From an uncultured Alphaproteobacteria bacterium (GTDB lineage: Bacteria; Pseudomonadota; Alphaproteobacteria; Bin95), in assembly GCA_937891825.1 (NCBI GenBank), contig CALAHN010000154.1, positions 1 to 55,424 on the forward strand: a DNA stretch of 55,424 bases. Direction: 5' to 3'. Shown here one piece after another: positions 3,454 through 49,656 of this stretch. The translations under genes were made by a program, and so were the position numbers. Position 1 is the first letter of the stretch; every line of letters begins with the position of its first letter. The notes beneath the pieces are model-generated. The model saw only the letters and a list, made by a program, of their open reading frames with translations. It searched no databases and had not been told where the DNA came from.

Positions 3454-5694
3454 TTACGGCTGATCGCCGCTCTGGCTGGCGACGCCCTGGCTGATGCCGA
3501 TGCCGCCCAGGTGCTTGAACGTCACCCGGATGAAGACCGTATCCTCGCTGCCGCCGCCATCGGCCTGGCTCGCGAAATCGCGTTCGATGCCGAAGTCGAT
3601 CGACAGGCATTCGTCGGAATATCCGGTCGAGGCGCTCCATAGCAGGGAGCGGCCCGTATCCAGGTCGCGGCGATGGCGCGCGCCGATGCGCCAGTATGGG
3701 TCCGGCTGGGCGGAGAAGCCGATGTCGAGCTGCTCGCCGGCGGTCGAGAATTCCGGCCCCTGGGCTTCCTGATCGACTTTCACGTAAGCGGCGCGGCCCT
3801 GCAGCCAGGTCGGCCCCGCCACGACCGCGACTTCCTGCTGGCGAACCCCGGAGGCGTCCTTCTCCAGCCGCATGCGCCAGGAAAGGTCGAGCCAGGGGGC
3901 GGGCGAGAACGCCGCCGCCGCCGCCACGTCCGACCAATGGCCGGTCATGCCGGCGGCCGCGGCGAAGGCGCCGGGCTTGCGGGCCATGCTCTGGCCGATA
4001 AAGCCGCGGACCCGGCCGCCATCGGCGAACAGGCCCGTCGCCGACAGGCCATAGTCGATCCGCTGGCCGTCATCGACCAGATCCCGTCCGGGAAAGCGGT
4101 CGGGACTGAAGATATTGCTGTCGTCGAACTCGATGGCGCGGCTGTCTTCGTTCGGAATATCGTTGCTGCGGATATTGTCGAGGGACAGCACCGCCTGGGC
4201 GCGCGGCTCCAGGATCAAGGCGCCCCAGCTATTTTCCTGCAGCAGCGGATAGCGCCAGCCGGCGACGGCGCGCGGAACGGCGCGGGTCGCGGTCCCGTCA
4301 TTGGCGGCGCCGATCGCCTGGCCGTCGCGGGTATCGTAGAAGTCGCCCCTGAGGCTCGCCTGAAAATCGAAGAGGTGGCCGCCGGCCGTGGTGATCGGCA
4401 GTTCCCATCCGACGGTCGCCGACACGCTTTCGCCGTCGGCGCCCCTGTTGCGCCCCAGGACGCGGGCGTCGGTCTGGCCGAAGGCGTTGCCATAGGGGCC
4501 GGCAGCGCCCCGATAGGCGGCGAACAGTTCCGGCAGGGCATAGGGCGTGTCGTTCTGACTGGTGGACTCCCGCAGGTCCTGAACGCCGAAGCCGCCGATC
4601 CGGGCGTAGCTGTCATCCCAGAAGCCTTCGACGAACGCCTGATTGCGCAGCACGTCGGCGTCGTCGATGTGGAACGTTTCGAGGTAGCTGTCGTCGGACG
4701 CCAGGCGGCCGACCAGGGTCGCCCGCCATGTGTCGTCGAGCGCGAACTGGCCGTCGAGGAAGGCATGGCCGCGGGTCGTATCCTCCACCCGGTCGCCGCT
4801 GTTCGACGTGCGATCCAACTGGCCGATGCTGCCGTCGAAGCGGATCGCGCCGCTTTCGAACAGATGGCGGTACTCCAGGGCCGCGACCGGCAGCGACTCT
4901 GCCGTGACGAATGGCTTGAAGGTCAGGTCGATATTGGGCGCGATCGACCAGTAATACGGAATCTGGGCGATCGCATCGAACTCGCCGCCGAAAAACAAGG
5001 TCGGCGAGAGGAACCCGGTCCGCCGGTCGACGGTCGGGTCGGGGTGGCTGAAATAGGGCAGGTACATGACCGGGACGCCGGCGATATCGAGCGTCACGTC
5101 CTCGTAGTTGATGTCGTGGGCGACCTCGTCATGCTCGACCTTGCGCGCCCGTAGCCGCCAGATCGGCGCTTCCTCCGGCTTGTCGGCGCAGAGCGTGCAG
5201 GGAGTGAAGGCGGCGTCGGTCAGGATGGTGCGGTCGCCGGCGATCCGGTCGACCGTCCGCCCGACCAGGCGGGAGCCGTCGGAAAGCCTGAGGCCAAGCT
5301 CGCTCGCGACCGCGCGTTTCATGCCGTCGGTGAGTTCGGCGCGATCGGCGCTGATGACCTCGCCGCCAGGCTCAAGCACCGTGACCGATCCGGTCGCGAC
5401 CACCCTGTCCGCGCCGACGAAATACTCGATGCGATCGGCGGCAAGGGCGCGGGCGCCCTGCACGACCGTCACATTGCCGGTCGCGGTCACGACATCGCGG
5501 TCCTTGTCGTAGACCATGGCGTCCGCGTCGATCAGCGCCGGCGCGCCGCCATCGGGCGCGGTCGAAAACCCGAACGGCGAAGGCGAAACAGCGCCTGGGA
5601 CAGGCGTCTGGGCCGCAGCGCCATGGCTCATGCCCGCGGTCAGCCCGAGAGCGAGAGCCAGCGTTGCGGCGGCATGTCCAGGGCGTTCGGCCAT
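3454..5694 (-). CDS. lptD: LPS-assembly outer membrane protein LptD
   Basis: A 746-residue protein with an N-terminal signal peptide (cleavage likely after the GAAAQ region), an OstA/LptA-like beta-jellyroll domain at about residues 55-160 (repeats such as VTATGNVTVVQGARALAADRI), then the LptD plug and barrel. The CTLC cysteine pair at the jellyroll-barrel junction and the stretch VPVMYLPYFSHPDPTVDRR are typical of LptD. In the outer membrane it inserts LPS delivered by the Lpt bridge. The usual alphaproteobacterial neighbours lptF, lptG, surA and pdxA are absent; it lies 21 bp downstream of a gamma-glutamyltransferase gene and may share its transcript. Confidence 0.93.
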   Translation of the reverse strand: MAERPGHAAATLALALGLTAGMSHGAAAQTPVPGAVSPSPFGFSTAPDGGAPALIDADAMVYDKDRDVVTATGNVTVVQGARALAADRIEYFVGADRVVATGSVTVLEPGGEVISADRAELTDGMKRAVASELGLRLSDGSRLVGRTVDRIAGDRTILTDAAFTPCTLCADKPEEAPIWRLRARKVEHDEVAHDINYEDVTLDIAGVPVMYLPYFSHPDPTVDRRTGFLSPTLFFGGEFDAIAQIPYYWSIAPNIDLTFKPFVTAESLPVAALEYRHLFESGAIRFDGSIGQLDRTSNSGDRVEDTTRGHAFLDGQFALDDTWRATLVGRLASDDSYLETFHIDDADVLRNQAFVEGFWDDSYARIGGFGVQDLRESTSQNDTPYALPELFAAYRGAAGPYGNAFGQTDARVLGRNRGADGESVSATVGWELPITTAGGHLFDFQASLRGDFYDTRDGQAIGAANDGTATRAVPRAVAGWRYPLLQENSWGALILEPRAQAVLSLDNIRSNDIPNEDSRAIEFDDSNIFSPDRFPGRDLVDDGQRIDYGLSATGLFADGGRVRGFIGQSMARKPGAFAAAAGMTGHWSDVAAAAAFSPAPWLDLSWRMRLEKDASGVRQQEVAVVAGPTWLQGRAAYVKVDQEAQGPEFSTAGEQLDIGFSAQPDPYWRIGARHRRDLDTGRSLLWSASTGYSDECLSIDFGIERDFASQADGGGSEDTVFIRVTFKHLGGIGISQGVASQSGDQP

Positions 5695-44133: not shown

Positions 44134-45261
44134 ATGACGCGCACCGCGATCTGCGAACTCTTTGGGATCGAGCATCCGATCCTGCTCGCCGGCATGGGCA
44201 CGGCCAGCACGCCGGAGCTGGCGGCCGCCGTATCGAACGCTGGCGGGCTTGGCATCATGGGCGCGGCGGGGCTAGGGCCGCGCGGGCTCAGGGATTGGAT
44301 CGCCCGCTGCCGCGCGCTCACCGACAAGCCGTTCGGCATCGATACGCTGCTGCCGGCCTCCGTCCGCCGGGGCGCGAACCTGAAGCCCTTGAGCAACGGC
44401 CCGCTGCCCCAGGACCTGGTGCCGCAATACCGGGCGATGGCGGCTGGCTTCCTTGCCGACGAAGGCATTCAGCCCGCGACCGACGACCAGATCTGGCCGG
44501 AGCCGGACGGCCCGCCGATGTTCTCCAAGGACTTCTTCGAAGCGCAGATGGACGTGATCATTGAGGAGCGCGTGCCGGTCTATGCCTCCGGCCTCGGCAG
44601 TCCCGGCCCCTGGATTGAGCGGCTGCACGCCAACGGCGCCAAGGTGCTGGCGGTCGTCGGCACGGTCCGCCACGCCAGGCAGGTCGTGCCCGACGGCATC
44701 GACGCCATCGTCGCCCAGGGCCATGATGGCGGCGGGCATAATTCGCCCATCGGCACGATGGCGTTAATCCCCCAGGTGGTCGATGCGGTCGGCGACCGGG
44801 TGCCGGTGCTGGGGGCCGGGGGCATTGTCGACGGGCGCGGCATCGCGGCCGCCCTGATGTTGGGCGCGTCCGGCGTCTGGGTGGGCTCCGCGTTCCTGGC
44901 GTCGGAGGAAGCAGGCCTCTTCGACGGCCAGAAGCAGGCGATCGTCGATGCGACCGAGGAAGGCACCACGGTTTCCCGCGCCGTCACCGGGAAGCCAGCA
45001 CGGATGATCCAGTCGAAATGGACGAAGTTCTGGGAGGAGAGCGAGCATGAGCCATTGCCGATGCCGTTCCAGACCCAGGTCGCGCGCCCGGCGCTGACCG
45101 CCGCCAACCTTGCGGGACGCTCGCAGGAGATTAATCCTGGCTTCGCGGGACAGGGCATTGGCATGATCAAGGCTGTCCGCCCCGCCGCCGCCATCATGGC
45201 CGACCTGATCGCCGGCATGGACGAGACATTGGACGCGCGCTTCAAGGCGCTTCGGGGATGA
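44134..45261 (+). CDS. Nitronate monooxygenase (2-nitropropane dioxygenase family)
   Basis: A 375-residue FMN-dependent TIM-barrel flavoprotein. EHPILLAGMGTASTPELAAAVSNAGGLGIMG at the N-terminus (interrupted by variable residues) and the FMN/active-site loop QGHDGGGHNSPIGTM are diagnostic, followed by GAGGIVDGRGIAAALMLGA and WVGSAFLAS. It oxidises nitronates such as propionate 3-nitronate, or related substrates. A 4-nt overlap with the next frame and a shared strand suggest co-expression with the Baeyer-Villiger monooxygenase. Confidence 0.9.
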   Translation: MTRTAICELFGIEHPILLAGMGTASTPELAAAVSNAGGLGIMGAAGLGPRGLRDWIARCRALTDKPFGIDTLLPASVRRGANLKPLSNGPLPQDLVPQYRAMAAGFLADEGIQPATDDQIWPEPDGPPMFSKDFFEAQMDVIIEERVPVYASGLGSPGPWIERLHANGAKVLAVVGTVRHARQVVPDGIDAIVAQGHDGGGHNSPIGTMALIPQVVDAVGDRVPVLGAGGIVDGRGIAAALMLGASGVWVGSAFLASEEAGLFDGQKQAIVDATEEGTTVSRAVTGKPARMIQSKWTKFWEESEHEPLPMPFQTQVARPALTAANLAGRSQEINPGFAGQGIGMIKAVRPAAAIMADLIAGMDETLDARFKALRG

Positions 45262-45275
45262 AGGGAAAAACACGC

Positions 45276-46877
45276 ATGTCGACCGATCTGGATGTCATCA
45301 TTGTCGGCGCGGGCGTCGCCGGACTCTATGCGATTCACAAGCTGCGCGGCCTCGGCTTCAAGGTGCGCGCCTATGAGGCCGGCGACGGCGTCGGCGGCAC
45401 CTGGTACTGGAACCGCTATCCCGGTTGCCGCTGCGACGTGGAAAGCCTGGAATATTCGTTCGCTTTCGATAACGATCTCCAGCAGGACTGGCGCTGGCCG
45501 GAACGCTATGGGGGCCAGCCCGCGATCCTGGACTACGTCAACCATGTGGCGGACCGGTTCGACCTGCGCCGGGACATCGTCTTTGAAACCCGGATCGCGT
45601 CGGCCCTGTATGACAGCGACGCCGCGCTTTGGACGATCCGGACCGACAAGGGCGAAACCGTCGTCGCGCCCTATTGCATCATGGCGACAGGCAACCTCTC
45701 GACGCCCCGGAATCCGGACATTCCCGGCATCGACAGCTTCAAGGGCGACTGGCATCACACCGGCCTCTGGCCCCATGAGGGCGTGGATTTCGCCGGCAAG
45801 CGCGTCGGCGTGATCGGCACCGGCTCCTCCGGGGTCCAGTCGATCCCCCATATCGCGGAACAGGCGGACGAGCTTTACGTCTTCCAGCGGACCGCGAATT
45901 TCAGCTTGCCCGCCCGCAACGAACCGATGACCGACGCCCGCGAACGGCCGCACAAGGCGACCTACGAGGAACGACGGATCGCCGCCTACGACACGCCCTT
46001 CGGCATCGCCGGATATCCGCCGCCGACCCATTCCGCGCTCGAGGTTTCTGAGGCGGAGCGGAACCGGACCTATGAGGAGAAATGGGCCCAGGGCGGCAGC
46101 ATCAGCTTCCTCTATGCCTTCAACGATCTTCTGACCAACAAGGCGGCCAACGACACGGCGTCCGAGTTCGTGCGCAACAAGATCCGCGCCATTGTGAAGG
46201 ACCCGGCGACGGCCGAACTGCTGTGCCCGAACGATCATCCGATCGGCACGAAGCGCCTGATCCTCGATACGAACTATTACGAGACCTACAACCGGAACAA
46301 TGTGCATCTGGTCGACATCCGCTCGGCGCCGATCGAGGCGATCACGGAGACCGGCATCCGGACGGCGGACGGCCAGCATTACGCGCTCGACGCCATCGTC
46401 TTCGCGACCGGGTTCGACGCCATGACCGGCGCGATGAAGGAAATCGATATCCGCACCGACGCCGGCGCCGACATCAAGCGGAAATGGGCGGATGGCCCGC
46501 AGACCTATCTCGGCATCATGATGGCGGACTTCCCGAACCTGTTCATGATCACCGGCCCGCAAAGCCCCGGCGTCAAAAGCCAGATGATCCTCTCCTGCGA
46601 GCAGCATGTGAACTGGATCGCCGACTGCCTCGTCGCCCAGCGCGACGAAGGCAAGCGCCGGATCGAGCCGGAGCCGGCGGCCGAGCAGAACTGGGTCGCG
46701 CACAACAACGCGGTCGCGGACGCGACGCTCTATCCGCTGGCGAACTCCTGGTATGTGGGCGCGAATATTCCAGGCAAGCCGCGCATCTTCATGCCCTATG
46801 TCGGCGGCGTGACCCGCTACAAGGCGAAGTGCGACGCGGTCGCGGCCAACGGCTACGAAGGCTTCCGGCGCGCCTGA
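45276..46877 (+). CDS. Baeyer-Villiger-type flavin monooxygenase
   Basis: A 533-residue FAD/NADPH monooxygenase. DVIIVGAGVAGLYAIHKL is the FAD fold, GGTWYWNRYPGCRCDVES the second conserved block, FKGDWHHTGLWP the Baeyer-Villiger fingerprint (FxGxxxHxxxWP), GVIGTGSSGVQSI the NADPH fold and FATGFDAMTGAM the late motif. These enzymes insert oxygen next to ketones to give esters or lactones. Start at 45276 gives the standard N-terminus; an ATG at 45258 overlaps the upstream stop and would add six residues. Confidence 0.92.
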   Translation: MSTDLDVIIVGAGVAGLYAIHKLRGLGFKVRAYEAGDGVGGTWYWNRYPGCRCDVESLEYSFAFDNDLQQDWRWPERYGGQPAILDYVNHVADRFDLRRDIVFETRIASALYDSDAALWTIRTDKGETVVAPYCIMATGNLSTPRNPDIPGIDSFKGDWHHTGLWPHEGVDFAGKRVGVIGTGSSGVQSIPHIAEQADELYVFQRTANFSLPARNEPMTDARERPHKATYEERRIAAYDTPFGIAGYPPPTHSALEVSEAERNRTYEEKWAQGGSISFLYAFNDLLTNKAANDTASEFVRNKIRAIVKDPATAELLCPNDHPIGTKRLILDTNYYETYNRNNVHLVDIRSAPIEAITETGIRTADGQHYALDAIVFATGFDAMTGAMKEIDIRTDAGADIKRKWADGPQTYLGIMMADFPNLFMITGPQSPGVKSQMILSCEQHVNWIADCLVAQRDEGKRRIEPEPAAEQNWVAHNNAVADATLYPLANSWYVGANIPGKPRIFMPYVGGVTRYKAKCDAVAANGYEGFRRA

Positions 46878-46996: not shown

Positions 46997-48942
46997 ATGG
47001 TTCACAAGCATCCTGGCGTGCATGCAAGGTTTGGCGCGGTGTTGGGGATGGGGCCCGGCGGCGTGCCGGTCTATTCCTCGGACTACGATAGCGCCGACCG
47101 GGCCGAATTGCCGACCCGCCAGTCCTATCGCAGCATGCTCGACGGCGTTTACATGGGCCACAAATGGCAGTGCGTCGAGCTTGCGCGCCGGTGGATGTAC
47201 CTGACCCATGGCTACATCTTCGACGATATCGCCATGGCTTACGATATTTTCCGGCTGCGTCAGGTCCGTGTCGTCGCCGACAACTCGACCTTGCCGCTCC
47301 ATTCCTTCCGGAACGGCGCCCAGCGGCCGCCGGTCCCGGGCTGCCTGATGATCTGGAACGAGGGCGGCGAGTTCGAGGTGACCGGGCATGTCGCCGTCGC
47401 GACCGAGATCGGCGCGGATTTCGTCCGCGTGATCGAGCAGAACGTCGACGATGCGATCTGGCCCGAAGGCCATCGCTGGTCGCGGGAGCTGCCGATGCGG
47501 CGCATGGCCGATGGCGGCTATTGGGTCGATTGCACCTTCAGCGACGCCAGCATCCTCGGCTGGGTGATCCAGACCGACGACGCAGCCCATGCCGAGACCG
47601 AGCTTGCGGACGATCCGGCCCTGTTCGAGATCATCCGCCGCACGCTTCCGGCGGCGACCGACCGCCGGACGGCGGATTGGCTCGATCCGAGCGACCCGAT
47701 GCAGGCGAGCTTCATCGCGCTGATGGGCGGGCAGAATCTGTCCCGCGACCCGGCCGACATGGCGGCTTATTACTGCATCAGCGAAACCGCGCTCCGGGAA
47801 GCGCAGCGGGCGACGAACGAACTGCACCGGATGTTCCTGCATGCGACCAATGCCGTGCTGGAGGACGATGGGCTGCTGGCGCGCTTCAAGCTGCCGCCGG
47901 CGCTCTGGCCGCGCATCCGACAGTCCTGGGCCAATCGCCGGAATGAGATGATCACCGGCCGCTTCGACTTCGCGCTGAAGTCGGAAGGCCCGAAGGCCCG
48001 AAGGCCTATGAGTACAACGCCGACTCGGCCTCCTGCTACATGGAATCCGGTTTCCTTCTGGGGCGCTGGGCCGAAGCCTTTGGCTGCACGGCCGGCCGCG
48101 ATCCGGGCGCGGGCCTGACCGCGGCGCTGGTCGAGGCCTGGCGCGCGAGCGCCGTCGACGGCGTGCTGCACATCATGCAGGACCATGACCTGGAGGAGGA
48201 TTATCACGCCCGCTACATGCACAACGCGCTTGAGCAGGCCGGCGTCGCCTGCAAGATCCTGAAAGGCGTCGGCGACCTCCGCTGGGGCGATGACGGCCTG
48301 GTTCACGATGCGGAAGGGCTGCCGATCGCCTGGGTCTGGAAGACCTGGGCCTGGGAGACGGCGCTCGATCAGATCCGCCACGATCTCGACGAGGACGAAG
48401 AGAACCTCCGGCTGCACAAGACCATCGACCGCAAGACCCAGCCGCCGCGCATCGTCGACGTGCTGCTGCGGGAAGGGGTCATGGTGTTCGAGCCGCTCTG
48501 GACGCTGGTGACGAGCAACAAGGCGATCATGCCGGTCGTCAAACAGATGTTTCCAAGCAGCCGCTTCCTGCTGAACACCAGCTTCGAGTTGACGGACGAC
48601 CTGAAGCGGCGCGGCTATGCGGCGAAGCCCATCGTCGGGCGCTGCGGCGCGAATGTCGCCTTGTATCATCGGCGCGACGGCCTGGTCGCGGAAACCGCCG
48701 GCCAGTTCGACGACCGCGACACGATCTATCAGGAACTCTGTCGCCTGCCGACGGTCGACGGCCGGAGCGCCCAGCTGCAAACCTTCGCGGTCGCGGGCAA
48801 TTTCGCCGGCGCTGGCATCCGCGTCGACCTCTCGCCGATCATCACGACCGACAGCGACCTGCTGCCGCTCCGCGTCCTGCCGGACGATGAATTCCTGGCG
48901 GCGAAGGTCATCGTCGAACCGAAAAAGGCGTCGCTAGCTTGA
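46997..48942 (+). pseudogene. gss: Glutathionylspermidine synthetase/amidase, frameshifted by an 8-bp duplication
   Basis: Two adjacent frames together encode the bifunctional GspSA enzyme. The first (46997-48118) has the CHAP amidase with its nucleophile C59 in GHKWQCVELARR and continues through TNELHRMFLHAT and LWPRIRQSWANRRNEMITGRFDF. The frame then breaks at 47984-48006, where GAAGGCCC is present nearly three times. The second frame (to 48942) continues YEYNADSASC, HIMQDHDLEEDYHA, VWKTWAWETALDQIR, VLVFEP-like VMVFEPLWT and PIVGRCGAN of the ATP-grasp synthetase. Removing one octamer gives a 645-residue intact protein. As written only the amidase half would be made; sequencing error or true phase variation are both possible. 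Confidence 0.88.
47984..48006 (+). repeat. Octamer tandem repeat (GAAGGCCC x 2.9) at the gss frameshift
   Basis: Units lie at 47984-47991 and 47992-47999, with seven bases of a third at 48000-48006. The family sequence expects one unit fewer: deletion of 8 bp restores the codons for SEGPKAYEYNADSAS. Short tandem repeats of this kind arise by slipped-strand replication or assembly error. Confidence 0.9.
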
Positions 48943-49017: not shown

Positions 49018-49656
49018 ATGGCGCGCGGGCTGTTGATCGCGGCGTTCAATTTCAAGAACGCCCATGCCGATGAATTTCACGATTGGTACGACCTGGAGCA
49101 TGTGCCGGAACGCGAAGCCGTGCCGGGCTTCGGCGCCTGCGAGCGCTGGATCGGCGTCGACGATCCGTTTGTCTCGGTAGCGACCTACGACCTGGAGTCC
49201 GTCGATGTCCTGCGCGGGGCCGATTACAAGGCGATCGCGGGGGAGAACCTGAGCGTCTGGTCGAAGCGCGTGACGGCGATGTGCGACCGGGTGCTGCGCT
49301 TCGAAGGCGCGCAAACCCTGCCCGGCGAGGCCGAAGCGCCGGCGGGCGCGGGCGGCCTGCTGCTGAACGCCATGAACGTCACGCCCGAGGGCGAGGCCGA
49401 CTTCAACGCCTGGTACGACGAGGAGCATATTCCCGCGCTCGCTGGCGTGCCCGGCTGCCTGGCGGCCCGGCGCTATCTCTCCGATCCGCGCATCGAGGGC
49501 ACGCATAAATATGTGGCGATCTATCATCTGGCGACGCCGGAGGTGACCCGGTCCGACGCCTGGGCGAAGGCCGTCGACACGCCCTGGAGCGCCCGGGTCC
49601 GGCCGCATTTCCGGGACCGTTTGCGTGTGCTGACCGGGCGCTACGCGCGCGGCTGA
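49018..49656 (+). CDS. Tandem ferredoxin-like (EthD/DUF4286-type) protein
   Basis: A 212-residue protein made of two homologous ~100-residue halves. Each carries the motif (F)xxWYDxEHxP...VPGfxAxxRw: FHDWYDLEHVPEREAVPG in half one and FNAWYDEEHIPALAGVPG in half two, each followed by a strand ending ATYDLES or AIYHLAT. This is the dimeric alpha+beta barrel fold, often in degradation pathways. ATG at 49018 is chosen, with a GGGGGA six bases upstream; a TTG at 49006 is less likely. Ligand unknown. Confidence 0.7.
   Translation: MARGLLIAAFNFKNAHADEFHDWYDLEHVPEREAVPGFGACERWIGVDDPFVSVATYDLESVDVLRGADYKAIAGENLSVWSKRVTAMCDRVLRFEGAQTLPGEAEAPAGAGGLLLNAMNVTPEGEADFNAWYDEEHIPALAGVPGCLAARRYLSDPRIEGTHKYVAIYHLATPEVTRSDAWAKAVDTPWSARVRPHFRDRLRVLTGRYARG

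Follow-up and report, generated by a model that had tools for sequence, protein, structure and literature searches.

A gss gene split over two reading frames at an octamer tandem array, and its probable origin by recent replication slippage

The window, a stretch of 55,424 nucleotides from an uncultured Alphaproteobacteria bacterium, contains a gss gene for the bifunctional glutathionylspermidine synthetase/amidase that is split over two reading frames at a GAAGGCCC tandem array. This gene is a broken member of the bifunctional Gss family, not a working one, and it is probably a standard gss gene that has suffered a recent loss-of-function mutation by slippage. Among the three alternatives offered for the break in the preliminary description (a phase-variable switch, a recent mutation or an assembly error), the recent mutation is the best supported. 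The lesion is an ordinary kind of mutation, without sign of a purpose-built genetic switch. It has the features of a recent slippage pseudogene, being isolated, located in a repeat, absent from relatives and, except for one proline change described below, accompanied by no general decay.

The two frames together account for the family profile NF007801 (619 positions), with positions 6–327 covered by the upstream frame and positions 329–617 by the downstream frame; therefore, the frame change coincides with the array and no other part of the gene is missing, as had been proposed when the locus was described as one gss gene with one frame change at the octamers. Both the CHAP and the synthetase domains are present, whereas the scores of the separate frames (451 and 402.7 bits) do not reach the curated cut-off of 882 bits, slightly below which the intact orthologue from genome G006 likewise falls (879.7 bits). 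Similar to the known Gss/GspSA enzymes (NF007801/PRK10507; PDB 2IO7 and 3O98), the window gene has the same kind of domain order with full, albeit two-frame, profile coverage and keeps the Cys59 equivalent and synthetase residues on either side of the break, but it is split by a frame change at about E. coli position 328 and neither frame alone covers the whole enzyme. The TGC codon at 47171–47173 aligns with E. coli Cys59 in an ungapped alignment to 2io7, E. coli position 59 being confirmed as Cys. The native part of the upstream ORF comprises the entire amidase domain and the start of the synthetase domain (Table 1). Removal of one unit was said to restore a 645-residue enzyme, and the arithmetic holds, as 1946 bp minus 8 gives 646 codons including the stop. 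The downstream frame is open from 47947, overlapping the upstream frame at 47947–48118. Re-initiation of translation in this frame is not supported, since its first ATG, GTG or TTG codon is at 48040, past the active-site motif with E330, N332 and Ser337, and no Shine-Dalgarno sequence is evident before that position.

Table 1. Coordinates of the split gss gene, its parts and its neighbours in the window
Feature	Position	Strand	Basis or remark
FMO-like monooxygenase gene flanking gss	45258-46874		
Upstream frame of gss, 373-aa ORF	46997..48118	+	~334 native + ~39 out-of-frame residues
CHAP (amidase) domain	47150..47443	+	Pfam PF05257, residues 52-149
Synthetase domain, N-terminal part	47759..47992	+	Pfam PF03738, residues 255-332; GSP_synth profile 24-99
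GAAGGCCC array, frame-change site	47984..48006	+	sequence, Tandem Repeats Finder, homologue comparison
Downstream frame, rest of synthetase domain	48004..48942	+	GSP_synth profile 103-369
Out-of-frame tail of upstream ORF	48007..48118	+	stop at 48116-48118
EthD/ABM-like protein gene flanking gss	49018-49653		

Direct reading of the sequence gives 2.88 copies of the octamer, and Tandem Repeats Finder reports a period of 8, 2.9 copies and a 100% match, confirming the count and position of the octamers noted earlier. We further surveyed 314,176 bases, comprising the window and 13 further stretches from its genome, about 7% of the total, for tandem repeats of a period of 5–40 that is not a multiple of three. 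The array is the only such repeat with at least 15 consecutive matching bases, and a run of this length appeared in 1 of 20 order-4 Markov simulations of 314,176 bases each; chance does not account for the array. When all non-triplet repeats of this period range with at least two copies were counted, the sample contained five, compared with three to nine across the 20 simulated runs; within the sampled part of the genome, false or hypermutable repeats are not generally overrepresented.

The AlphaFold2 model of the intact orthologue places the break in the turn of a predicted beta-hairpin, between strands 325–333 and 336–343. By alignment, the former strand carries the counterparts of E. coli R316 and D318, which are kept upstream of the break, and the latter carries those of E330 and N332, kept downstream of it; we take these four to be catalytic residues of the synthetase. 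Because the break parts two strands carrying active-site residues, neither fragment should act as a synthetase. The equivalents of Ser337 and Glu391, presented as key residues in PMC6272389, are also kept, both downstream of the break. The upstream ORF would leave an intact amidase domain, provided that its 373-residue product is stable; for E. coli, the same source reports an activity of the isolated amidase domain about 10-fold above that of the full enzyme. A glutathione synthetase gene and a SpeE-family gene are present in the genome, so the substrates of Gss can probably be made in this host.

The break site was compared with 27 distinct homologues, after three duplicate loci had been dropped by identity. 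None of them has an octamer repeat there, a six-base repeat occurs in two, and the G006 orthologue (74% DNA identity) has a net eight bases fewer at the site; comparison with related genomes had been suggested as a check in the preliminary description, and its outcome agrees with a gain of one unit in the window. All but one of the homologues (26/27) are open throughout. The exception, from the complete chromosome of Kordiimonadales bacterium IMCC3096 (CP018227; locus L037, also L050), carries an in-frame TAG at 5341–5346 in place of a conserved Trp of the synthetase half (WVWKT*AWET). Like the window gene, it is damaged only once, in the synthetase half, and its amidase half is intact, but the lesion is a nonsense codon and not a repeat, an event independent of that in the window. 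Two further damaged copies were observed. In E. coli 13P477T (NZ_CP019273.1, locus L144, 2202–3512), gss is cut beside an IS26 transposase gene with only the CHAP end left, and is annotated as an incomplete pseudogene. Genome G492 has, besides an intact copy elsewhere, a partial second copy with a TAG codon (C2:328708–329226, locus L139; profile positions 422–594).

A whole-genome search found gss in 2 of the 14 genomes of the family, where the G006 copy is the sole orthologue besides that of the window. A full gss, over one or two frames, is present in 4 of the 385 genomes of the class sample, in three of the nine genomes of the family of G208 and, the window genome counted, in 13 of 398 genomes of the phylum sample. 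A scan of named genomes yielded 14 loci; it used two peptide patterns, one of which adjoins the break site, and therefore favours copies bearing that motif. A megablast search of 5426 E. coli genomes matched 3341, all but one (3340) with coverage of at least 80% of the query; this search does not show frameshift status, and its query is only about 81% identical, so that unmatched genomes may lie below the reach of the method. At overview level, the literature on glutathionylspermidine amidase/synthetase pseudogenes, frameshifts, gene loss and reversion of 8-bp duplications contained no gss break of this kind and no such allele.

Outside the array, both halves of the gene are well conserved. 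Amino acid identity to the closest orthologue is 73% before the break and 76% after it, and the NG86 dN/dS ratios are 0.149 for the upstream part and 0.152 for the downstream part, with dS near saturation (0.65–1.4). Of the columns that are invariant in the other 27 rows, the window differs at 0 of 53 on the amidase side and at 1 of 58 on the synthetase side, within the range of intact copies (0–5 before the break, 0–3 after), and general decay of the gene is thus not supported. There is likewise no excess of lineage-specific replacements that would indicate relaxed selection on the synthetase half (7/158 vs 9/162, P = 0.80), nor does the comparison against the orthologue reveal one (9/162 vs 6/159, P = 0.60). 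On the scale of these comparisons, this conservation on both sides points to a recent break, as had been claimed from the window alone; the test has little power for very recent events and gives no date.

The repeat tract itself carries a second unusual change. The CCG codon at 47990–47992, inside the array, specifies Pro where all 27 homologues have Leu (15), Ile (10) or Val (2); in the AlphaFold2 model of the G006 orthologue (mean pLDDT 84), this position is the second residue of strand 336–343. The preliminary description is right as regards the good conservation on both sides, whereas its 'alone' and 'no decay' need correction: the proline shows that more than one lesion is involved, which counts against a single-lesion account. 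The base C is the eighth base of units one and two, while a T follows the third, partial unit. A substitution followed by duplication takes two steps and the reverse order needs two identical substitutions; by parsimony, the change to C, which gives a perfect repeat and the Pro codon, therefore most likely preceded the duplication. The gene could already have been impaired before the octamer was duplicated.

The following scenario would account for these observations. The ancestral lineage presumably carried about two units, that is, a seven-base direct repeat at a spacing of eight, to which replication slippage would have added one octamer unit. Translation would now proceed in frame through the amidase domain and the initial third of the synthetase domain, continue out of frame from the hairpin onwards and terminate after about 39 more residues. 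Glutathionylspermidine synthesis from this gene would thereby be lost to the cell, while the amidase domain could persist if the truncated protein is stable. The locus illustrates neatly how slippage can shift the frame of a metabolic gene, and it carries a caution for annotation, where such a site would be called two genes or a pseudogene. If the population is mixed for the two alleles, it would also allow the reported interdomain control of the amidase to be tested in nature.

It is unlikely, though the draft state of the assembly (163 contigs) has to be considered, that the consensus contig carries an octamer missing from most cells, either as an artefact or as an allele of a minority strain. 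An artefact would be expected to appear as just such a lone lesion, with the remainder of the gene conserved. To our knowledge, however, duplication of an octamer is not a usual sequencing error, and since non-triplet repeats in the 314-kb sample occur at the simulated level, false duplications are not a general weakness of the assembly. Gss is a cytosolic metabolic enzyme and not a surface structure, which counts against the phase-variable switch suggested earlier, where fast change in unit number would toggle between the amidase alone and the full enzyme. The array is exact, gain or loss of one unit shifts the frame, and the truncated form retains the amidase domain; as in the simple-sequence contingency loci of Haemophilus influenzae (PMC2651432), a tandem unit not divisible by three lies inside an ORF. 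Nevertheless, the 2.88 units fall short of the minimum of three that the permissive survey of that species sets for octamers (PMC2651432). Unlike those loci, moreover, the array is not conserved in relatives (0/27 homologues) and gives no evidence of variation, and the sample, with repeats at the random level, contains no other long non-triplet repeat. Such a switch is therefore highly improbable.

We see an equally slim chance for a selected conversion to an amidase-only enzyme, in which loss of the synthetase would be useful to these bacteria. Both broken copies among the 28 loci, those of the window and IMCC3096, were struck in the synthetase half, the IS26-associated gene of E. coli 13P477T retains only the CHAP end, and the isolated amidase domain is the more active form according to PMC6272389. 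However, the synthetase makes up about two thirds of gss, so chance alone predicts lesions there; the synthetase half shows no relaxation; and the share of broken copies, 2/6 in Alphaproteobacteria versus 0/12 elsewhere, gives a Fisher P of only 0.098. A broader version, in which some Alphaproteobacteria repeatedly make a free and more active amidase by breaking the synthetase half only, in this case by way of an octamer whose gain is still reversible, is very doubtful. Scarcely credible is a recoding event, by which ribosomal or transcriptional slippage would at some rate yield the complete protein. In its favour, conservation of the synthetase half persists and the frames overlap at 47947–48118, but this conservation is just as well explained by a recent lesion, and the array is missing from the relatives. 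In addition, the slippery heptamer X XXY YYZ, our criterion for a programmed -1 frameshift in the frame overlap, does not occur at 47947–48110, and the overlap has no homopolymer of at least five bases.

Both genes flanking gss have homologues of 65–80% identity in genomes G001, G002, G004 and G006, where the two are found on different contigs; an insertion of gss or a rearrangement of the region may lie behind this. The gss orthologue of G006 has neighbours different from those in the window. The only other PF03738 copy in the window genome encodes a 388-residue single-domain protein on another contig (C31:11255–12373, locus L001). It was considered as a replacement for gss and rejected, since a protein without the amidase half and with about 36% identity over part of its length only is not a second gss. 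Copies similar to this single-domain protein are common in the class sample.
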